From contig LXQI01000026.1 of the NCBI GenBank assembly GCA_001683845.1, positions 40,668-104,667 on the forward strand: DNA of 64,000 nt, read 5' to 3'. This stretch comes from Erythrobacter sp. ANT-B3C2. GTDB taxonomy: Bacteria; Pseudomonadota; Alphaproteobacteria; Sphingomonadales; Sphingomonadaceae. The notes beneath the pieces were generated by a model. The model saw only the letters and a list, made by a program, of their open reading frames with translations, was not told the origin of the DNA and ran no database searches. Positions 22,821 through 32,823 of the stretch are shown here, one piece after another. Numbering within the stretch: the stretch's first letter is position 1; each line of letters opens with the position of its first letter. The translations under genes were made by a program, and so were the position numbers.

Positions 22821-24983
22821 CTATTCGGCTGCGATCGCGAGGGGCTCGATCTCGACCGGCTCATCCTCGACCGGAGCATCCGGTTCGTCGATGGCCGTTT
22901 CGCCGCCGTCTACCGCCGTCTCTTCGCCGAGCGGTTCGGTGCTCGGCTCGATGTCGATTCCTGACGCGTCGATGTGGGTGGTCTCGACGGCAGGCGGTAG
23001 AACGCGGCCCGGCGTGCGCAGCGGCTCGGGCAGCCAGCCCGACCCGACCAGCAACTCCTCCGCCTGTTCGGCCATCTCGACCTTCTTGAGGTGCTCGATC
23101 CGGTCGCCTGCGCGATCCCCTCTGGCGTCTCGAACCGCAGCCAAGATGCGCGCCTTGGTCACCCGGCCAAGATAGCGCTCCACAGTGGGCGTCCACCCCG
23201 CCGCGACCATGTCGAGATCGACCGCTTGGGCGAGCCGATCGGCATGGGCGAGCGCCTTGGGCTTGCGGTTGTAGGCCTCGAACATCGCGTTGACCGACTG
23301 CGAGACGCAGTGGGCGAACAAGGCTTGCCGACTGTCGCCGTCGAACGCCGCCAACGCGTCCCACAGATCCGCCGCTTCCTTAGGCAGTGCCTTGGCCCAA
23401 GACTGATGCCGTGCGGTCATCGCCGTCGCGAGCGCGCTGTCGTTCAGCCCCGGTGCCTGCGAATGGAAGCCGACGCTCTTGATGTCGAGCTCCAGGCAGG
23501 TGTCGAGCGCGTAGGGGTAGAACGCCTTGAGGCAGAGCGCGTGCAAGGCCGCGAGGAACGCGACATCGGGGTGCTCACCAAGCGCATGGCGAAGCGCCAG
23601 CGTACGGTGGGTGGTGAGCTCGGTCATTAGCCGGTCGGGGATCGGCTTGATGCCCTCGTCCTCCTCGGGCTCGGGCGCCAATTGCGGGTCAGCGTCGCTG
23701 GCGCCGTTGTCATCGCCTCCACCGGCCGGGACGGAGCGGGGCTCGCCACCGTCGATCTCGGCTTCGATCTCCGCTTCGGGCTCGGGGGCGACCGGCAGCT
23801 CGTCCTCCGGACGGACGTAGCCGCGCTCGATCCGCAGGTTGCCGCCGCCATCGATGCTGACGAACGCACCGGCGCGCGCGACCTCGGCCGGATCGAACAG
23901 GACCGGCCGCTCGTCGAAGCCCGCGAGGGCGGTTTCGATCTCGCCGATGCGCTGATCGATCTCTTCGGGCAGGTCGTCGGGACCGGCGTAGGTCTCCTCG
24001 ATCTGGTCGAGCTCGGCCCGGAGGGCGGTTCGGGTCGATTCCTCGTCGGTGGTGAGCGGCACCTCGTCGCCGCGGAGCTGACGCAGCCCGAAGACGTGGC
24101 CGTAGGCGAAGTCGGGTGCGACCTCGATCCACTTCCAGCCCTCGGCGCGGATCGTCTCGGCCTCCTCGCGCAGGCGTTCGGCGACGAGCATCTCGACGAG
24201 GCCGACGTCCTGCAGCCAGCCGCCGTCGTCGCCGAGGAACAGGTCGCGCAGGATCACGCCGCCGGCCTCCTCGTAAGCGGCGAGACCGATAAACTGCGCG
24301 CGCTTGTCGACGACGCGGACCGCACCCTCAGTCAGCATCCGCCGGATGGCGTGCGGCTGCTTGTCGTAGGACTGGGACAGCCGCTCGAACACCTGCTCCT
24401 GACGCGTGTGGTCGCCATTGACCGTGAACGCCATCAGCTGGTCGAGCGTCATGCCGTCCTCGGCGTAGACGTCGAGCAGCTTGGGGCTGACCGAGGCGAG
24501 ACGGAGCCGCTGCTTGACGACCGCGACCGCGACGAAGAACGCAGCCGCGATTTCCTCCTCGGACTGGCCCTTCTCGCGCAACGTCAGGAATGCCCGGAAC
24601 TGGTCGAGCGGGTGGAGCGGCGCGCGCTGGACGTTCTCGGCGAGGCTGTCCTCCTCGGCGATGCCCTCTTCGCGGATCACGCACGGCACCGGTGCGGTCT
24701 TGGAAAGCCGGCGCTGCTTGACCAGCAGTTCGAGTGCCCGGAACCGGCGGCCGCCGGACGGGACTTCGTACATGCCGGTCTCCACGCCATCGGCGTCGCA
24801 CACCGCGCGGACGGTCAGGCTCTGGAGGAGCGTGCGCCGCGAGATGTCCTCGGCGAGCTGCTCGATCGCGATACCGGCCTTGATCCGCCGGACGTTGGAC
24901 TGGCTGAGCACCAGCTTGTTGAAGGGGATGTCCCGGGACGCGCTCAGGACGATCTTCTGCACGTTGTTGGCTTTCGTGGCCAT
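22821..24983 (-). CDS. ParB/RepB/Spo0J-family protein
   Basis: A 720-aa protein with an N-terminal ParB nuclease-like domain: LSQSNVRR at about 27-33, SGGRRFRALE at 76-85, and the CTP-binding type box SLAENVQRAPLHP at 113-125. An HTH region follows (EEEIAAAFFVAVAVVKQRL). The rest is acidic and helical, with a Pro/Glu-rich linker near 400-440. It is much longer than chromosomal ParB and belongs to the class found in ICEs and plasmids with DUF932. The ATG at 24983 follows a leader of family 2. Confidence 0.92.
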   Translation of the reverse strand: MATKANNVQKIVLSASRDIPFNKLVLSQSNVRRIKAGIAIEQLAEDISRRTLLQSLTVRAVCDADGVETGMYEVPSGGRRFRALELLVKQRRLSKTAPVPCVIREEGIAEEDSLAENVQRAPLHPLDQFRAFLTLREKGQSEEEIAAAFFVAVAVVKQRLRLASVSPKLLDVYAEDGMTLDQLMAFTVNGDHTRQEQVFERLSQSYDKQPHAIRRMLTEGAVRVVDKRAQFIGLAAYEEAGGVILRDLFLGDDGGWLQDVGLVEMLVAERLREEAETIRAEGWKWIEVAPDFAYGHVFGLRQLRGDEVPLTTDEESTRTALRAELDQIEETYAGPDDLPEEIDQRIGEIETALAGFDERPVLFDPAEVARAGAFVSIDGGGNLRIERGYVRPEDELPVAPEPEAEIEAEIDGGEPRSVPAGGGDDNGASDADPQLAPEPEEDEGIKPIPDRLMTELTTHRTLALRHALGEHPDVAFLAALHALCLKAFYPYALDTCLELDIKSVGFHSQAPGLNDSALATAMTARHQSWAKALPKEAADLWDALAAFDGDSRQALFAHCVSQSVNAMFEAYNRKPKALAHADRLAQAVDLDMVAAGWTPTVERYLGRVTKARILAAVRDARGDRAGDRIEHLKKVEMAEQAEELLVGSGWLPEPLRTPGRVLPPAVETTHIDASGIDIEPSTEPLGEETAVDGGETAIDEPDAPVEDEPVEIEPLAIAAE

Positions 24984-25040
24984 GGTAGGTCTCCATGACG
25001 GCCTGGCCGGAGAACCTCTCTCTCGACCTTCTCACCGTCA
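24984..25040 (-). promoter_or_regulatory. Leader family 2 hairpin upstream of parB
   Basis: On the transcript strand, TGACGG and CCGTCA arms (25040-25035 and 25001-24996) enclose GGTCGAGAGAGAGG and CCGGCC. The hairpin ends 12 nt before the ATG, with GGAGA in the gap. The same element with a 7-bp stem precedes DUF932. Confidence 0.7.
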
Positions 25041-25122
25041 CGAAGCTGCGGCCCACCTCTTCCTCTGAAGGGGGTGGACCGCAGAACCGTGGATCAGGAA
25101 AGGCGCAGAGCCGGAAAGCCGC

Positions 25123-26319
25123 TCAGGCCGCGCGCTCCAGCAGCTTCTTCGCGCGGCCCTCGAGGTCGAGCCGGGCGTCCTGGTGGGTCTTGTCGCGCGC
25201 CACGGCGGTGATGCCCTGCACGAAGTCGAAGACGCTCTCGGGCTTCTTGCCTTCCTCGTTCAGCACGCGTTCGAGGATCTTCGTCGTCTCGGCCTTGCTG
25301 AAGCCGCGCTTGCGCAGGAAGTCGGCGCGGTCCTCGTCGGTACGGGCGACGATCTTCGCGCGCGCTTGGCGGATGCCGTCGATGAACGGCGCGGGCGACG
25401 AGTTGACGAACCGTGTAAGCGCCGGCGCGGCCTCGTTTGCGAACCGCGAGGCGGCATATTTGCTGTGCCGGATGGCAATCTCCTCGAAGTCCTCGACGCC
25501 CCAGAGATTGCGGTTCTGGCAGACGGCGCGAAGGTAGAAGCTGGCCATCCCGAGCGTCTTCGCGCCCACCTCCGAGTTCCAGCAGTAGAAGCCGCGGAAG
25601 TAGAGATCGGGCGAGCCGTCGGGCAGCCGCCCCGCCTCGATCGGGTTGAGGTCATCGACCAGGAAGAGGAAGACGTCGCGGTCGCTGGCGTAAAGCGTGG
25701 TCGTGTCCTGGGTGACGTCGACGCGCGGGTTGTAGATCCCCGTCGACCAGTCGAGCACGCCCGGCACCTTCCAGCGCGTGTCGCCGGTGCCGTTGCCCGC
25801 GATCCGTTGCACGGCTGCGACCAGCTCGTGGTCGTAAATGCGACCGTAGTCGGGGCCGGTGACGGCGCGAAGCTCTACCCGCCCATCGTCGGTCTCGAGT
25901 GTCTTGACCTGTTCGGCGCGATGCGAGGTCAGGCCATATTGCAGGTTGATCCCCGCCAGGGCGGCGGGGAGCTGGCGGAGATAGGCGGCAGGCGCGCCGA
26001 CCAGGCTGGCGAGTTGTCCGAAGCTCCAGTGCGTGGGCGCGATAGGCGCGTCCGAACCGGGCAGCATCAGCGACAGGCGCTCCGCGTCGTCGCGGCTTGC
26101 CTCAACCCGGACGGCGGCGCTTTCCACGGTGCGCGTGCGGCTCCGTTCACTGCGGCCCTTCACCGAAGCGAACAATTCCGTCAGCGACAGGTAGCGCTCG
26201 TCGGCCGGGCGGTTGAACCATTCGGACGAGACGCGGCCGACTCTCTCGCCGCGCGACACATCCACCTTGTAGCCGCGCCCCAAATCGGGGCGGGCGTCTG
26301 GAACTTCGACTTGGGTCAT
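25123..26319 (-). CDS. DUF932 family protein
   Basis: A 398-aa DUF932 protein, common on conjugative elements and phages; its function is not established. Family stretches include HWSFGQLASLVGAPAAYLRQLP, VTGPDYGRIYDHELVAAVQ, FLVDDLNPIEAG and YCWNSEVGAKTLGMASF. The ATG at 26319 is 12 nt after a family 2 hairpin. It is divergent from the ATPase gene of the defence-like pair. Confidence 0.92.
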   Translation of the reverse strand: MTQVEVPDARPDLGRGYKVDVSRGERVGRVSSEWFNRPADERYLSLTELFASVKGRSERSRTRTVESAAVRVEASRDDAERLSLMLPGSDAPIAPTHWSFGQLASLVGAPAAYLRQLPAALAGINLQYGLTSHRAEQVKTLETDDGRVELRAVTGPDYGRIYDHELVAAVQRIAGNGTGDTRWKVPGVLDWSTGIYNPRVDVTQDTTTLYASDRDVFLFLVDDLNPIEAGRLPDGSPDLYFRGFYCWNSEVGAKTLGMASFYLRAVCQNRNLWGVEDFEEIAIRHSKYAASRFANEAAPALTRFVNSSPAPFIDGIRQARAKIVARTDEDRADFLRKRGFSKAETTKILERVLNEEGKKPESVFDFVQGITAVARDKTHQDARLDLEGRAKKLLERAA

Positions 26320-26374
26320 GGGTCATCTCCATGACGGGCGGCCGGGAGCCTCTCTCTCGACCCTCAACCCGTCA
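26320..26374 (-). promoter_or_regulatory. Leader family 2 hairpin upstream of DUF932
   Basis: Transcript-strand arms TGACGGG (26374-26368) and CCCGTCA (26338-26332) enclose GGTCGAGAGAGAGG and CCGGCC, as in the parB leader. The stem is one pair longer. The gap to the ATG is again 12 nt and starts TGGAGA, so the stem abuts the ribosome site. Confidence 0.7.
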
Positions 26375-26540
26375 CGGCGACAGCCGCTGCCCTCTCACTC
26401 TGTCCCCTCGGGTCCATCCTGCGTCCCCAGCTCCCAGGGTCGGCGTCGACATGACGACATCTGACCAGAGGGCTGTGCCATGCCCGACCTTGGCGGGCGA
26501 GGCTGCAATCGTGGTCGCGACCTGCTAGGGCAGATGGGGC

Positions 26541-28097
26541 ATGGCGTATTTCAAGGTCTTACCGAACGGAACCCGGGTGCCTAATCAGGCGACCGATAAG
26601 GCCTTCCTGTTGAGGGACAACTGGGACGACTGGTTCAAATTCTCCACGCTTTATGTGCTGTTTATCTTCGACGAAGACGGCGAGCGGCACTCAATCGGCG
26701 GCGTGAAGATCGGTCAATTCAACATGGCAGACGATCAACGAAGCCCCTCGATCCCGGACAGCTTCGATCAGCTTGACGCTCGCTTCTTCTCCCTTGGTCA
26801 AGACGATAGCTACTATGGCGAATTGAACCAGCTTGGCGCCGCGACGCGCGACCGCGTTCTCAGAGCCTTGCAAGATGTATCCCTCGACGCCGAATTATTC
26901 GAGCGCGCATTGCAGGAGAAGGTGACTGGCACGTCACTTCTGCGCTCAGTGACGCGCGCCACGGTCGAAGGGCAGTTCCATCGCATGGCTCAGGGCGGCG
27001 CGCGCCTAACCGACTATCAGTTCAGCTACACAGCGCCTGCTCGAAGCCGCAGGAAAGCGAGCCCGCTTACGCTCTCCTTTACCGTTGCCCCTGAGTCCTA
27101 TCCGCCGACCAACGTGCACGTTCTGATCGGTCGTAACGGTGTCGGCAAAACCACGATTCTCAACAACATGACCCAAGCTATCGTCGACGCGGATTCCGAC
27201 GAGGAAGAGGTCGGTGCCTTTAAAGACGAAGTGGACGACGGTGATGAGCGACTGTTTACCAGTCTCGTTTCTGTAACCTTCAGCGCGTTTGATCCGTTTG
27301 AGCCGTTGCCAACGAGGCAGGATAAATCCGAAGGGGTGCAGTATGCCTATATTGGTCTGAAGCACGTTGGACTGGGGAAGGATGGCAAGCCGCGGCCGCC
27401 GAAAACGCCCGAGGCCCTGTCTGGTGATTTTAGCAGCAGCGTCCTGATCTGCCGTCAAGGCGCGCGTGTGAGTCGGTGGCATCGCGCGCTAGAGATGCTC
27501 CAAGCTGATCCGATTTTCCGCGACGCTGAAGTGGCGACCCTCGCTCGCTCTGGGGTTGAAGCCGACGCCGTCAAAATGGAGGCGCGCCGGATCTTCAAGA
27601 ATCTGAGTTCGGGCCACAAAATCGTGTTGCTGACGATCACTCGGCTTGTCGAGACCGTCGAAGAGAAAACGTTGGTTCTACTGGACGAGCCAGAGGCGCA
27701 TCTCCATCCGCCTTTATTATCGGCGTTCATCCGAGCGCTGTCCGATTTGCTAATCAACCGCAATGGCGTGGCCGTAATTGCGACGCACTCGCCCGTCGTC
27801 CTGCAGGAAGTGCCACAGAGTTGTGTGTGGAAGATCCGTCGGACCGGTAGTCGCGCGATAGGGGAGCGGCCCGACGTGCAGACGTTCGGTGAAAACGTCG
27901 GGCTCTTGACGCGCGAGGTCTTTGGTTTGGAGGTAACGCAGTCCGGGTTCCACAAGATGCTCCGCGAGGCAACGACTGAGCTTCCAACCTATGACGCGGT
28001 CGTGCGCAAATTTAACGGTGAACTTGGCGATGAGGCCCGCGCGATCGTGCAGGGGCTTTTGGCTGCGCGCGATGACCAAGATGAAGACGATCTCTGA
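26541..28097 (+). CDS. AAA ATPase of a Septu-like pair
   Basis: A 518-aa ABC/SMC-type ATPase resembling PtuA. Walker A is GRNGVGKTT at 197-205, the signature-like LSSGHK at 355-360, Walker B LVLLDEPE at 378-385 and the H-loop THSP at 415-418. No TOPRIM domain follows, unlike OLD nucleases. The first 190 residues are an uncharacterised N-terminal extension. The stop overlaps the HNH gene start as TGATG, so the two are coupled. GC content is lower than in the backbone, consistent with acquired cargo. Confidence 0.88.
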   Translation: MAYFKVLPNGTRVPNQATDKAFLLRDNWDDWFKFSTLYVLFIFDEDGERHSIGGVKIGQFNMADDQRSPSIPDSFDQLDARFFSLGQDDSYYGELNQLGAATRDRVLRALQDVSLDAELFERALQEKVTGTSLLRSVTRATVEGQFHRMAQGGARLTDYQFSYTAPARSRRKASPLTLSFTVAPESYPPTNVHVLIGRNGVGKTTILNNMTQAIVDADSDEEEVGAFKDEVDDGDERLFTSLVSVTFSAFDPFEPLPTRQDKSEGVQYAYIGLKHVGLGKDGKPRPPKTPEALSGDFSSSVLICRQGARVSRWHRALEMLQADPIFRDAEVATLARSGVEADAVKMEARRIFKNLSSGHKIVLLTITRLVETVEEKTLVLLDEPEAHLHPPLLSAFIRALSDLLINRNGVAVIATHSPVVLQEVPQSCVWKIRRTGSRAIGERPDVQTFGENVGLLTREVFGLEVTQSGFHKMLREATTELPTYDAVVRKFNGELGDEARAIVQGLLAARDDQDEDDL

Positions 28098-28942
28098 TGC
28101 AGCCCCTAGCGCGACCGGGTCACTCAGCGCGATCCGCCTTCACGACCTGCATCGGCCGCGTTCGTAATCCCGGACTCGCTGCTCGCTTAAGTGCGGCAAC
28201 AACCACGATCGTCAACGCGTCCGCTGCGTTCGATCGGGCGGCCGCTCAAGGCACGCTCAACCAAATCGTGCCCATAGCAACGGTGGCACCAGACATCACT
28301 ACTGAGGAGATGGGCAAGGTCTACACCCAAAGGATGGCGAAGAACGGGGCACCGGGGCGCGATATCTATGACGAAATTTTCGTATCATCGCCACAGGGGC
28401 GATGTCCGCTTTGCGCGCAGCGCTCGGTGGCTACACTCGACCACCACCTGCCAAAGGCACATTACCCCGCCCTCGCAGTCGCACCTCTGAACTTGGTCCC
28501 CGCCTGTTCTGACTGTAACAAGGCTAAGCTTGACGCGATCCCCACCTGTGCCGAGGAAGTTGCGCTCCATCCATATTATGACGATCTGGGCGGCGAAGGC
28601 TGGCTAGTCGCCCGCGTCGTGCAAACGCGGCCGACTGCTTTGCGGTTCAGGGTGGCCGTCCCGGCGGTATGGAGTCCTGTACTCGCCACCCGGGTGTTAA
28701 ATCACTTTCAAACCTTAGGCTTGGCTACGCTCTATGCGTCTGAATCTGCCGAGGAGCTCATAAACATACGGCATCAGCTTGTCACGTTGAGGGCAAGCGA
28801 CGCGGTGGCTGGGGTGAGGAATGAACTCGGACGGCGAGCGGTGAGTTGCGAAGTCGGGCGGCAAAACGGTTGGCGGGCGGCGGCCTATCGAGCCTGGCAC
28901 GAGAGCGATTGGTTCTGCGCGGGCGGTTTCGAACCGACCTAG
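28097..28942 (+). CDS. HNH nuclease of a Septu-like pair
   Basis: A 281-aa protein with a zinc-type HNH core: C103xxC106, DHHLP at 115-119, N132, and C137xxC140-N141. This is the layout of PtuB-like nucleases. The N-terminal 95 residues are helical and may contact the ATPase. It directly overlaps the ATPase gene. Known Septu pairs protect against phage; activity here is inferred from domains and arrangement only. Confidence 0.87.
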   Translation: MQPLARPGHSARSAFTTCIGRVRNPGLAARLSAATTTIVNASAAFDRAAAQGTLNQIVPIATVAPDITTEEMGKVYTQRMAKNGAPGRDIYDEIFVSSPQGRCPLCAQRSVATLDHHLPKAHYPALAVAPLNLVPACSDCNKAKLDAIPTCAEEVALHPYYDDLGGEGWLVARVVQTRPTALRFRVAVPAVWSPVLATRVLNHFQTLGLATLYASESAEELINIRHQLVTLRASDAVAGVRNELGRRAVSCEVGRQNGWRAAAYRAWHESDWFCAGGFEPT

Positions 28943-29014: not shown

Positions 29015-29722
29015 TTACTTCTTCTTCGGCTTGAGGGTGCTGGTCGGATAACCGAACGCAAAGAAAAAATGCGACACGCGGATGGTGCCGTGGCTGGGAG
29101 CGAGCGCGGGATCACGATCGTGTTCGGTATCGAAGTCGGCGGCCGCGAACAGCGTTGACGGCTTAGCGATTGCGCCGCCGGCGGAGGCAGGCCGCAGCCG
29201 TAGCGCAGTCGCAAGACTTTTGTCCTCCAGCGCCATGCGCAGAGGAGGTACGACATCGGGCTCCGGATCGAGGAGTACGCCGACCATCGCCGCAACGGCT
29301 TGCTGGCGACTGTATATCCCGGTGACGAAGCGGCCGAGGCCTTGGTCGCGAAGGTAGTGGTTTCGATGGCTCTTCTGCCGCCCGATTCGCTTAAACTCGA
29401 ATACAAGACGCATGCCCAGTGCATCGTTGTTCCAACCGTAGACGATATCGGTCCGCCGTTCCTGTATCAGGGCTCCTGTCGCTGGATCGATCTCGCCGAT
29501 GATGTCCTCCGCCGACCACATGCCGAGCAGCCCTCGCTGTCGTGCGGTATGGTTCTCGACGTAGATCTTCAGCCGCTTGGTGAGCGCGGCTTCCTTGGTG
29601 TTCGAGTTGAATTGGGGATGGGGCCGGTCTGCGAGTTCGATCCAGCCTTGCCGAAGCGCTTCTACCGCCTCGGTGGCCGGCTGGATGGGGAAGGCCGAAA
29701 GCCAGTCGTCCGTCGAGCTCAC
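29015..29722 (-). CDS. Methylase-linked protein with possible PD-(D/E)xK site
   Basis: A 235-aa protein encoded directly downstream of the large methylase with a 4-bp overlap. No named family was recognised. Residues TDIVYGWNND (D92) and RLVFEFKR (E109, K111) sit at a spacing that fits a PD-(D/E)xK nuclease core, and a restriction role would fit the context. The C-terminal third has FFFAFGYPTSTLKPKKK, a basic end. It converges with the HNH gene. The nuclease call is inference. Confidence 0.6.
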   Translation of the reverse strand: MSSTDDWLSAFPIQPATEAVEALRQGWIELADRPHPQFNSNTKEAALTKRLKIYVENHTARQRGLLGMWSAEDIIGEIDPATGALIQERRTDIVYGWNNDALGMRLVFEFKRIGRQKSHRNHYLRDQGLGRFVTGIYSRQQAVAAMVGVLLDPEPDVVPPLRMALEDKSLATALRLRPASAGGAIAKPSTLFAAADFDTEHDRDPALAPSHGTIRVSHFFFAFGYPTSTLKPKKK

Positions 29723-32700
29723 GCGACCTCCGCAGGCATCGATGATCCGGCGCGGGCTTGAACGGTCCGCACGATGTGCTCGGCGTCACGAAAGGCCTGA
29801 CGAATAGTCCAGCTTCGCTGGGTTAAGGGCCGGACGAGATAGAGCGATCCCTCGATCCATATATGAGCATCGGGCACCAGCGTGAGGGACTCCCCAGCAG
29901 GGATGGCGCGCAATCCGGCGCTTCTGAGCTGTGCCAAAGTCGTCAGCACAAGCTCGTCGTCGATGGTGCTGTCAACCTTTGGTGCAGCAGTTGGCTGATC
30001 CGCGTAAGTAATCCGCACGATGCCGGATGGACCCGCGCGGGACGGATCGCTAGCGACTACGCCGACGTGGAAGCGACCGCGGCCCTGGGTGCGGGTGCGC
30101 CACGTGGTAAGCGCTTTGGCCAATGCTTCAGCGTAGGTCTTGAAGTCTTCGGCGGCCGCCGGGTGCTGCGCCGGCGTGTCGAGGCTTCGGAAGCTGCGCG
30201 GCCTGATCGAAGGCATCAACACCCTGACTGTCTCTTCAACTAGCGCTTGTTCCTGTGGTGTCAGCCCGAAGTAAGCGAAAATGGCCTTATCGAGTGTAAG
30301 TCGCAGCGCGCTGTAGCGAGGGCCCTGCTCCAGCTCGGTGAGCCTTGTGAGTTCGCCCATGTAACCCCTGATCTCATCGAGCGCGGCCTTGGCCGCTTCG
30401 GGGTTCGGTGCGTCCTCCGGGGCGAAGAACGGAAAGGTCTCGACGTCCGCGAGATGCACGCCGTTGCGTTCGCAAAGCATCTTCCAGCCCCGCATCATCA
30501 GAAAGTATTTCGCGAGGCTGGACCGAAGGTAGACGGCCGCGAACTGAAGGAGCGCCGCGTCTTCGCGCTTGCCTGCGATCACGCCGACGCTGTGCGTGAA
30601 GCTCGCCGGGCCATCGTAATAGGCGGCTCTTACGCTGTGGTCCTGCTTCGAGAAGCCGTCCGGAAATAGTACGCGCGGTCCATCAAAAACGGCTTTTACG
30701 CTGTCATTTAACCCGACGACAAACTTCTGATCCTTGGGCCAGGGAGTAAGCAAGTCGTAATGCAAAACGGGGGAGCCGGCGCTAAGCGCTGCGACCGGCA
30801 CAAAAGGCTTGTCGCGCAACGGTTCGGCGCTGACTGCTTCCCGGCTCTTATCATTGAGATGGATGCCTTTGCGATTCACCCAGCGGCGGAACTCGCGTGG
30901 CCCTTTCCAGAAGTCGGCAAACACTCCCCGCGCCGTCAGTCGCGCCCAGATGGCCAAGTCATTGGCGTCACCCCACATCAGAGTGACTAGGAGCTGCGGG
31001 TCCTGTGCGACCGATCGGGTCTGGAGCTGATGACGGTCTGCCGACTGCATTGTGAGACGGCCGAGCGCCAAGCTCATATCCGCCTTGGGTACGCAATAAT
31101 CGAAGGTCTCGCCAAACGGGATCGCGGGCAGTGTCGCCTTCGAGCGTTTTTCGCCAAGGAACACATGGCAGGTGTTCTCGGCGGTCGGAAACAAAAGTCC
31201 CTGAAGGTCGCCGAAGTTGATCAGGCGCTGCGGTCGGTAAGCGACAAGCAAATGCGAGACGAATGAAGCACTGGACCCGCCAAGAAACTGGCCGATGGGC
31301 AGGATAAGGCAGACTCGGCCGCCCTCGGCAAGGAATTCATGCGCGCGCAAGGCGTAGGCACCCGCAATCTGCCGCCGAACGAAGGGTGCATCTGCCCGGG
31401 TCGCCCATTCGTCCGCCGACGTGTGGGCCTCACCCTCCGGTTCGGCCCAGGGAGGGTTCGAAATGATCAACGAGAAGCGTCGACCCGCATAGGCGTGATC
31501 TTGGCGAAAGAAGTCGGCGTTGGCCTTCCCGTGGTGAAGGTTTCCCCCGTCGAGCGACGGCAGCTTTACGTCCTCACGCTCCTGCGCCTCCATTATATCA
31601 GCCGGGTCGAGACCCTCGAGGAGCGACAGGTAAAGGCTGAAGGCGGTCACGCGACACGCCATGAAGTTGATGTCGCTGCCAAAGATGCGGCGGCGCAGAA
31701 GCTCTCCGCGTTCGGCAAAGCTGAGTTGCCGCTTCTCTCGAGCTTCGGACAGCGCGATCAGACGCCGGTATGCGGTCGTGAGTAGAATCCCCGACCCGCA
31801 AGCGCCGTCGTAGATCGTCTCCTCAAGCGGGTCCGGGGAAAGGGCGAAGGCTTGATCGACCGCGAGCATCGCTAGGTTGCGCGGCGTGTAGTAGGCACCG
31901 TCCTCAGCTTGCTGCTCGGCGGAGAGGAACGATTCGTAGAGGCCGGAAAGCAACTCGACGGGAATGTAACTGAAGTCGTAGTTCCAGAAGTCGCCCTGGC
32001 CCGTCCCCATGTCCGTGCGTCTGAGGAACTCGTCGAGAAGCCCGAAACCCTGAGGGGTCAGCGCCGACCATGGTCCGTGCCGATCGTCACCCAGAAAGTC
32101 GCCGTTGAAGTCGGCGCGCAGACGATCGATCAGCGCCCCGATACCGTTTTGGTCGGTCCGCGCGACGAGGCTGTGCAGCTGGCCGACTTCACGGCGAAGC
32201 CGATAAGTCTCGCCTACGATGCCGCGATGCTCGAGATATGAGACGAACAGCACCTGCCCCATGAGTAGTTCGGCCAGCCGACGACGCGCGTTCTCCTGCG
32301 GCACGCCCTCGAAGCCACCGCTCGTCAACTTGGAGACGGCGGTGGTGAGATTGGCGAGCAGTTTGCGATCGACCCGTGCCTTTACGTCGAACCAGCTAGG
32401 GGACCGTCGCGACAGGTTGGCCGAGACGATGTCGAGCGCCGAGAACGGGCCGTCAGGCCTCGCCTCGCCGAGCGTAAGAGGTTCACCGGCGTTCTTGAGC
32501 TTCCGAGCCGGCACGGCGAGCGCCTTCTCGCCCTTTATCTCGATCACAACGGTGGCGAGGTTCTGATTCCAAATGCGCTGCCGAGCCTCGTCCAACGCCT
32601 TCGCCGTCATGGGCGCCTCATCGCCGCCTACGAAAACGACGGTCGGCACTCCTTCGACGTCGAAAACCGCCTGTGCCCGGACAGCGCCATCCGGCTTCAG

Positions 32701-32823
32701 CAACGTCTTAATCTCTAGTGCGTAAGGGTGCGTCTCGGGCACCGCCTCGCCGCGCATATGCAGAACTGCTGGCTCTGCGGCGTAGCCGAGCCTTTCAAGC
32801 CAGTTCTGCGTAGCGGATGTCAC
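29719..32823 (-). CDS. N6-adenine DNA methylase, type I/IIG-like
   Basis: A 1034-aa protein with an N-terminal region carrying a VVIEIKGEK segment (about 92-100), an N6-methylase core with motif I DGACGSG at 339-345 and motif IV NPPW at 456-459, and a long C-terminal part that may hold target recognition. No HsdS or HsdR gene is adjacent. With the 235-aa partner it looks like a two-gene restriction-modification or defence module. The EIK in the N-terminal part could mark a nuclease-like fold, but this is weak. Confidence 0.85.
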   Translation of the reverse strand: MTSATQNWLERLGYAAEPAVLHMRGEAVPETHPYALEIKTLLKPDGAVRAQAVFDVEGVPTVVFVGGDEAPMTAKALDEARQRIWNQNLATVVIEIKGEKALAVPARKLKNAGEPLTLGEARPDGPFSALDIVSANLSRRSPSWFDVKARVDRKLLANLTTAVSKLTSGGFEGVPQENARRRLAELLMGQVLFVSYLEHRGIVGETYRLRREVGQLHSLVARTDQNGIGALIDRLRADFNGDFLGDDRHGPWSALTPQGFGLLDEFLRRTDMGTGQGDFWNYDFSYIPVELLSGLYESFLSAEQQAEDGAYYTPRNLAMLAVDQAFALSPDPLEETIYDGACGSGILLTTAYRRLIALSEAREKRQLSFAERGELLRRRIFGSDINFMACRVTAFSLYLSLLEGLDPADIMEAQEREDVKLPSLDGGNLHHGKANADFFRQDHAYAGRRFSLIISNPPWAEPEGEAHTSADEWATRADAPFVRRQIAGAYALRAHEFLAEGGRVCLILPIGQFLGGSSASFVSHLLVAYRPQRLINFGDLQGLLFPTAENTCHVFLGEKRSKATLPAIPFGETFDYCVPKADMSLALGRLTMQSADRHQLQTRSVAQDPQLLVTLMWGDANDLAIWARLTARGVFADFWKGPREFRRWVNRKGIHLNDKSREAVSAEPLRDKPFVPVAALSAGSPVLHYDLLTPWPKDQKFVVGLNDSVKAVFDGPRVLFPDGFSKQDHSVRAAYYDGPASFTHSVGVIAGKREDAALLQFAAVYLRSSLAKYFLMMRGWKMLCERNGVHLADVETFPFFAPEDAPNPEAAKAALDEIRGYMGELTRLTELEQGPRYSALRLTLDKAIFAYFGLTPQEQALVEETVRVLMPSIRPRSFRSLDTPAQHPAAAEDFKTYAEALAKALTTWRTRTQGRGRFHVGVVASDPSRAGPSGIVRITYADQPTAAPKVDSTIDDELVLTTLAQLRSAGLRAIPAGESLTLVPDAHIWIEGSLYLVRPLTQRSWTIRQAFRDAEHIVRTVQARAGSSMPAEVA

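Follow-up and report, generated by a model that had tools for sequence, protein, structure and literature searches.

A structured leader with a predicted Shine–Dalgarno lock precedes ArdC, ParB-like and DUF932 genes on alphaproteobacterial conjugative elements

Two genes of different families on a conjugative element of Erythrobacter sp. ANT-B3C2 are each headed by a copy of one structured leader, which belongs to a family of ~90 nt of which we examined 190 distinct copies (202 model matches less 2 cut at a locus end and 10 repeats). Judged from sequence comparison, the leader is an RNA element that folds as the sense strand, and its Shine–Dalgarno sequence (SD) is predicted to be held within the fold. 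We think it probable, though by no means assured, that this SD-locked mRNA leader is read by a factor acting in trans and governs how a few genes on conjugative plasmids and integrative elements of Alphaproteobacteria are translated.

The window, that is, the whole stretch of DNA analysed, comprises 64,000 nt of assembly GCA_001683845.1 (contig LXQI01000026.1, positions 40,668-104,667, forward strand). Both leaders lie on its minus strand, each directly 5′ of its gene, with the following parts.

24981-25072, minus strand: parB leader, whole (AGAG repeats, hairpin, SD, start codon)
25056-25066, minus strand: tandem AGAG repeat of the parB leader, AGAGGAAGAGG, upstream of the hairpin (sequence; family-conserved position)
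25042-25045, minus strand: parB anti-SD CUUC, predicted partner of GGAG (fold and family register test)
25035-25042, minus strand: parB outer stem, 5′ arm CGTGACGG (sequence, fold, family alignment)
25005-25028, minus strand: parB inner hairpin (sequence, fold, family covariation)
24995-25001, minus strand: parB outer stem, 3′ arm CCGTCAT (sequence, fold)
24991-24994, minus strand: parB SD GGAG, predicted paired (fold; opening cost 7.5 kcal/mol)
22821-24983, minus strand: ParB-like protein, 720 aa (profile and fold matches)
26317-26406, minus strand: DUF932 leader, whole (AGAG repeats, hairpin, SD, start codon)
26392-26401, minus strand: tandem AGAG repeat of the DUF932 leader, AGAGTGAGAG, upstream of the hairpin (sequence; family position)
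26368-26376, minus strand: DUF932 outer stem, 5′ arm CGTGACGGG (sequence, fold)
26340-26362, minus strand: DUF932 inner hairpin, AGAGG loop at 26349-26353 (sequence, fold, family covariation)
26331-26338, minus strand: DUF932 outer stem, 3′ arm CCCGTCAT (sequence, fold)
26327-26330, minus strand: DUF932 SD GGAG, GG predicted paired (fold; opening cost 3.5 kcal/mol)
25123-26319, minus strand: DUF932 protein, 398 aa (Pfam PF06067, E 9.3e-4, under its cut-off)

Re-reading of the sequence recovered, on the minus strand, the stems, the coordinates, GGTCGAGAGAGAGG, CCGGCC and the 12-nt gap from TGGAGA to the ATG that an initial annotation had reported for both leaders, and added a second shared block that it had not described, the tandem AGAG repeat (AGAGGAAGAGG and AGAGTGAGAG) upstream of each hairpin. 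The pattern GTGACGG-N28..46-CCGTCATGGAGA had exactly two occurrences in the window and none in any of 100 shuffles, while the shared 14-mer alone was unremarkable (14 occurrences with up to 3 mismatches in the window vs. 10.5 expected). Each leader's fold beat all 200 of its shuffles (z = −3.80 and −3.48). An 8-copy covariance model (R1), outside which the AGAG repeat lies, matched the parB leader at 24981-25042 (48.5 bits, E 2.2e-9), a copy outside the R1 seed, and the DUF932 leader at 26317-26376 (78.6 bits); a longer model (R2) gave 66.1 bits at 24981-25071 for the parB copy, which was inside its seed, and 92.5 bits for the DUF932 copy, which was inside both seeds. Within the parB inner hairpin the family loop AGAGG occupies 25015-25019, and RNAfold of the single copy moves the loop by one pair.

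Across the family, the order is 5′-AGAG-NN-AGAG, ~13 nt ending in pyrimidines, an outer stem of CGTGACGGG with CCCGTC(AU or GC)G, a 5′ internal loop, a variable inner stem, an AGAG(G/U) loop, the SD, mostly 7-9 nt, and the start codon. A single nested two-tier hairpin, with stems of 13 and 9 pairs separated by the internal loop, accounts for the conservation of the leader. Pairing in the inner stem was assessed with an anchored test that did not assume that stem, in which the AGAGAGG core and the SD served as fixed points for 166 distinct sequences. Counting from the loop, positions 4-8 paired in 81, 96, 93, 96 and 85% of sequences, compared to 49, 86, 73, 75 and 70% when 3′ arms were shuffled among sequences, figures that, like those of the alignment below, are not probabilities because the sequences are related. 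Observed pairing exceeded the maximum of 200 shuffles at every one of these positions, and the result was the same for the 147 of 166 sequences from loci found by BLAST or by pattern, where the model was not used. A model-fitted alignment of 138 distinct rows, which leans towards the model, had 96.3% of cells paired and double changes in 12 of 17 pairs, with 0 of 500 shuffles equal to it; a covariation test on sequences without GAGAGAGGCT had n = 6 and carries no weight. Inner pairs 3-8 held 170 U-G or G-U combinations vs. 36 A-C or C-A, with A-C at position 4 making up 23 of the 36, and outer pairs 2 and 3 had 51 G-U and 71 U-G among the 138 rows. Since U-G and G-U are common and A-C and C-A rare, the mRNA-sense strand is the strand selected to fold.

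These results bear out the earlier proposal of one structured RNA leader common to genes of different families, for which the evidence is covariation among homologous copies. The initial annotation had also allowed that the stem might not covary and that similar blocks might occur by chance elsewhere in the genome; homologous copies do covary, and only four copies were found in the ~91% complete assembly, all before two DUF932-ParB pairs. The second of these pairs, on contig C43 of the same genome (L166:4464-5852), has its own leader on each gene and seems to be a further, related element or a copy that has diverged. The sharing of blocks within the stem by the two window copies is partly coincidence: the GAGAGAG core proved to be family-wide, and the GGTC part varies freely. 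Leaders of the same locus had the same identity as leaders in shuffled pairings (24 ArdC-ParB and 19 DUF932-ParB pairs, 150 rows of alignment A3). Because same-locus leaders are no more alike than different-locus ones, the stem sequence appears free to drift and recent duplication is disfavoured; chance or duplication as the origin of the shared leader is thus ruled out by the window shuffles, the covariation and the lack of special within-locus similarity.

The hairpin had been described as abutting the ribosome site, but the SD is instead predicted, and conserved, inside the hairpin base, paired to pyrimidines that form a run immediately 5′ of CGTGACGGG. Of the 190 leaders, 140 could be placed in register, and in these the mean predicted unpaired probability was 0.09 and 0.11 for G1 and G2 of the SD, with 0.91 for the AUG, 0.96 for the loop and 0.69 for the AGAG repeats. 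At least three of the four anti-SD pairs were present in 121 of 149 leaders vs. 0-67 in 17 shifted registers, and shuffling of the 13-nt spacer lowered the mean SD opening cost from 6.58 to 4.24 kcal/mol, the native value being higher in 80 of 100 leaders. Costs were spread widely (0.03-15.3 kcal/mol): leaders of a 182-aa family were weakly locked (median 2.6 kcal/mol), and in the window the DUF932 copy was only moderately locked at 3.5 kcal/mol, with 7.5 for parB. Predictions give good support to closure of the SD by the outer-stem base, and prediction and conservation together would place the leader among SD-sequestering leaders, in which the SD is paired within a conserved structure.

Within 34 nt upstream of the hairpin, 153 of 190 copies carried AGAGNNAGAG and 31 more had one AGAG, whereas none of 188 control stretches carried it; in 143 of the 153 it lay 24-26 nt ahead of the hairpin. 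The letters of the repeat recur in the AGAG(G/U) loop. Conservation of the loop and SD across all copies is inflated, as the search pattern GAGAGAGGCT...CGTCRYGGAGA is present in 104 of 190 and the others were favoured by the models; among 60 aligned copies outside this pattern the loop started with AGAG in 54, with G as the fifth letter in 40 and U in 16. Genes of a 130-aa family at L029:1945-2004, L030:1501-1561 and L066:3501-3559 had the AGAG loop replaced and the outer stem and SD kept. The pooled profile of 80 nt upstream had nothing prominent beyond −25, though ArdC and 182-aa copies showed some family-specific conservation farther upstream. Many ArdC leaders (e.g. L012, L014, L060) and some DUF932 leaders (L015, L017, L019) carried a GC-rich inverted repeat, TGCGGGG...CCCCGCA, located 5′ of the AGAG repeats. 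No conserved upstream ATG was seen among the copies, since CGTCATGG is swapped for CGTCGCGG in many of them.

Genes at the ATG of the 190 copies were ParB-like (82), ArdC (46), DUF932 (28), the 182-aa family (11) and the 130-aa family (4), along with 6 singletons and 13 copies left out of the clustering. Of these 13, two had no ATG and eleven had frames shorter than 40 aa, several of them clearly truncated or frameshifted. ArdC identity was assigned to one member by Pfam (MPTase-PolyVal, ArdcN) and to the remaining cluster members by BLAST. The 77 successive copy pairs included 29 ArdC-ParB, 19 DUF932-ParB and 9 ParB-182-aa pairs, an order in which ArdC and DUF932 seem to substitute for each other in the leading position. 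In loci chosen for bearing leaders, a strict hairpin pattern preceded 100 of 115 ParB genes, 64 of 70 ArdC genes (4 more were cut off), 40 of 48 DUF932 genes and 11 of 14 matches to the 182-aa family, and many genes failing the pattern had diverged hairpins by eye. Three Rhizobium-type DUF932 genes lacked the leader by eye (L010 at ~9969, L076 at ~388 and L116 at ~3320) and instead had another inverted repeat, rich in CG, close to the SD, which may be a substitute control. The window DUF932 protein was 43-87% identical to 20 relatives, themselves chosen from leader-bearing loci, and its predicted structure (mean pLDDT 44) gave no usable fold. Its ParB-like neighbour had a Pfam ParB_N match under the cut-off, a profile match to Spo0J/ParB chains (best E 1.2e-16) and, in the N-terminal part, a fold match to Noc/ParB/KorB; we infer that both are establishment genes.

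As the initial annotation had anticipated, a covariance-model search found the leader in other genomes: R1 at E up to 0.01 matched 21 of 289 alphaproteobacterial genomes, or 20 of 289 after removal of G063, whose match (L031) lacked the stem-SD-ATG unit and is therefore not a leader. Two to four copies were present in 14 of these 20. In a phylum-wide sample 27 of 299 genomes matched, or 25 once G063 and G333 were dropped as non-leaders, and no true leader was found outside the class in that sample, the sole outside match being among the two dropped. R2 matched 1 of 274 genomes of another class (G784) with a strong score; this leader is decayed and a ParB remnant follows it by eye, while a protein search of G784 yielded no ParB at E 1e-10. 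A sequence-pattern search of GTDB genomes gave at least 118 stretches. Of the 80 listed, we take 75 to be Alphaproteobacteria of several orders from their titles and names, four were labelled Proteobacteria only and one was a MAG labelled Gammaproteobacteria. The 38 beyond those 80 (L121-L158) were absent from the 190-copy model search and present in the anchored-pairing and gene-hairpin counts.

Among 72,556 plasmid records, BLASTN with the DUF932 leader as query matched 268 (42 over at least 80% of the query) and a consensus-like query matched 325 (209 over at least 80%), counts in which the weakest matches are due to chance as E was allowed up to 10. The commonest genera in the two lists, which include many near-identical strains, were Rhizobium (71, 67), Pseudosulfitobacter (31, 72) and Mesorhizobium (29, 28). 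Plasmids that carry the leader and are typed as conjugative include pEJ01 of Rhodobacter xanthinilyticus and pKvSKV1 of Ketogulonicigenium vulgare. One weak partial match was found in 50,697 phage records, and one IMG/VR contig had two copies, which by eye stand before an ArdC gene and a gene of the 130-aa family. The leader is almost confined to Alphaproteobacteria, with almost nothing outside. No Rfam 15 family reached its gathering score in the window or at the leaders in L003-L005, and none at E up to 10 overlapped a leader in the window region, L005, L011, L012, L018 or L060.

A loop, outer stem and AGAG repeats that are kept while same-locus leaders are not especially alike make a common controller of both window leaders, as initially suggested, a plausible candidate. 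Conserved loop, repeats and outer stem combined with a drifting stem form the pattern that one trans-acting reader would cause, and we infer such a factor for the family. On this reading, the SD would be held shut by the base of the outer stem, and one factor encoded by the element or the host would recognise the least-varying parts, namely the AGAG repeats, outer stem and loop, and would either keep the leader closed in an established host or open it. ArdC, ParB-like, DUF932 and small proteins would thereby be produced jointly, the likeliest moment being establishment in a new cell. ArdC of R388 is required in the recipient and not in the donor (PMC7213743). Translational operators such as those of phage coat proteins and ribosomal-protein leaders are hairpins around the SD in which one protein reads loop and stem and translation is repressed; the present leader has a similar SD hairpin but no known binding protein, and it serves several unrelated gene families.

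A narrower version of the trans-acting reading, which strikes us as rather doubtful, is zygotic induction at the RNA level. An RNA-binding protein of the resident element, or a tuned host factor, would clamp the AGAG repeats and loop and shut the SD of ardC, parB, DUF932 and their partners in the donor, and a fresh recipient without the clamp would translate all of them at once until the factor accumulates. If true, this would be a post-transcriptional counterpart of establishment regulons based on repressors and ssDNA promoters, and a regulon across conjugative elements of many orders of one class.

Several candidates for the reader were considered and rejected as general factors. CsrA was present in 4 and ProQ/FinO in 0 of the 20 leader-bearing genomes, and DUF736 in 16 of 20, being missing from G060 and the single-contig G066, both with strong leaders. 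ParB as an autogenous controller is possible. Across the 289 genomes, the leader was present in 16 of the 17 whose ParB match reached at least E 5e-97 and in 1 of the 11 whose match was weaker; at E 1e-20 the match was missing in 3 of the 20 leader-bearing genomes (G065, G096 and G247, in 200, 30 and 230 contigs). The recognisable domains of ParB are DNA-binding, and no RNA-binding fold was seen among the ParB fold matches listed.

An explanation that dispenses with a controller is, in our estimation, somewhat unlikely: the hairpin would be a built-in damper, reducing the translation of genes that may be harmful and shielding them from read-through, with the AGAG purines as a ribosome standby site. 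The predicted closure of the SD in most copies fits this, as do AGAG repeats that are SD-like and mostly unpaired (0.69), and the EGeRS1-B region of pLS20 stops read-through into its downstream gene (PMC8708921). Yet a damper would need neither a conserved loop nor such constant spacing of the repeats, and AGAG opens the loop in 54 of the 60 aligned copies that lack the search pattern, while the repeats sit at −24 to −26 in 143 of 153.

Less likely still, AGAG-NN-AGAG could be a DNA operator beside a promoter, bound for example by a ribbon-helix-helix repressor, with the hairpin acting separately to stabilise or damp the RNA. The p576 operator for Reg, TTATCCC-nn-TTATCCC, is also a tandem direct repeat with a 2-bp gap, and Reg represses establishment genes in donors (PMC8708921). 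Against this, no promoter-like site was found on either strand in 24900-26700 (sigma-70 consensus only, which is weak for this class), so transcription of the leaders is assumed; the pooled upstream profile is flat beyond −25, apart from the family-specific conservation in ArdC and 182-aa copies; and the repeat lies at a near-fixed distance from the hairpin and recurs in its letters in the RNA loop.

That the hairpin works as folded ssDNA during strand entry, as a promoter or priming site of Frpo or ssi type, is very improbable. Genes of conjugative-plasmid leading regions can be transcribed from folded ssDNA (PMC11541004) and the leader genes are of establishment type, but the wobbles favour the sense strand, the stems of 13 and 9 pairs are too short to contain −35 and −10 boxes, and the SD and start codon belong to the conserved unit. 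The transferred strand would presumably be the template strand. Frpo and ssi hairpins likewise drive early establishment-gene expression on conjugative plasmids, but Frpo folds as DNA and has promoter boxes (PMC11541004), whereas the leader folds as sense RNA and contains an SD, and no −35 or −10 boxes matching the sigma-70 consensus were found in 24900-26700, in folded double-stranded parts or elsewhere. The RNA switch proposed initially found no support as a thermometer or ligand-binding riboswitch, which we regard as scarcely credible despite the predicted sequestration of the SD, since predicted SD opening is near-constant from 20 to 60 °C (unpaired probability 0.15 at 20 °C and 0.21 at 60 °C in 60 sampled leaders), no complex ligand pocket is present and the identified genes are not metabolic. 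Two further mechanisms were judged unlikely: antitermination, by reasoning, because the leader recurs ahead of successive genes, and translational coupling of DUF932 to an upstream gene, because its upstream neighbour (26541-28097) is divergent.

The closest likeness is to EGeRS1 and EGeRS2 of the Bacillus pLS20 family, where several conserved copies sit just 5′ of the ribosome sites of ardC and further establishment operons, a fold is predicted for EGeRS1, and the common upstream sequences restrict expression of ardC and partner operons (PMC8708921). The leader resembles them in its multiple copies before ardC and other establishment genes, with 48 of 77 successive pairs being ArdC-ParB or DUF932-ParB. 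It is set apart by size and host: EGeRS1 is a Bacillus sequence of 420-750 bp for which the sections consulted describe no SD lock, and EGeRS2 is a promoter with repressor sites (PMC8708921), whereas the leader is ~90 nt, alphaproteobacterial and covarying, with its SD in the stem. EGeRS1 copies of one plasmid also mostly cluster (PMC8708921), while same-locus leader copies are not especially alike. STAXI is a structured motif near SSB, antirestriction and integrase genes, for which RNA and ssDNA roles were weighed, but it is a pseudoknot repeated two or three times in tandem (PMC2864571), and the leader is explained by one two-tier hairpin. The radC RNA motif (RF01754) is similarly structured; the leaders tested match no Rfam 15 model. 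A search of titles and abstract beginnings yielded no description of the leader, and an earlier description under another name is possible; a 2017 survey reportedly produced 224 candidate RNAs.

To our knowledge, the timing of anti-restriction and establishment genes in conjugative elements is known mainly for some enterobacterial and Bacillus plasmids, through promoters. The leader would give Alphaproteobacteria a translational scheme of their own, on plasmids of Rhizobium, Mesorhizobium, Paracoccus, Pseudosulfitobacter, Sphingobium and others. It also serves as a genomic tag that singles out DUF932 and the families of 182 and 130 aa as probable establishment genes, and through its conserved loop and repeats the binding protein could be sought directly by experiment.

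The window element encodes TraG/coupling proteins, a relaxase-like DUF3363 protein, a TrbC pilin, a replication initiator, a ParA-type ATPase, DUF736 and others. At 26541-28942 on the plus strand, divergent to the DUF932 leader, an ATPase and its partner match PADLOC PtuA1/PDC-M01A and PDC-M01B and are a candidate anti-phage pair. A Type IIG restriction enzyme-methyltransferase lies at 29719-32823 on the minus strand (PADLOC E 7e-251), so that the element has defence cargo near its leader-bearing genes.
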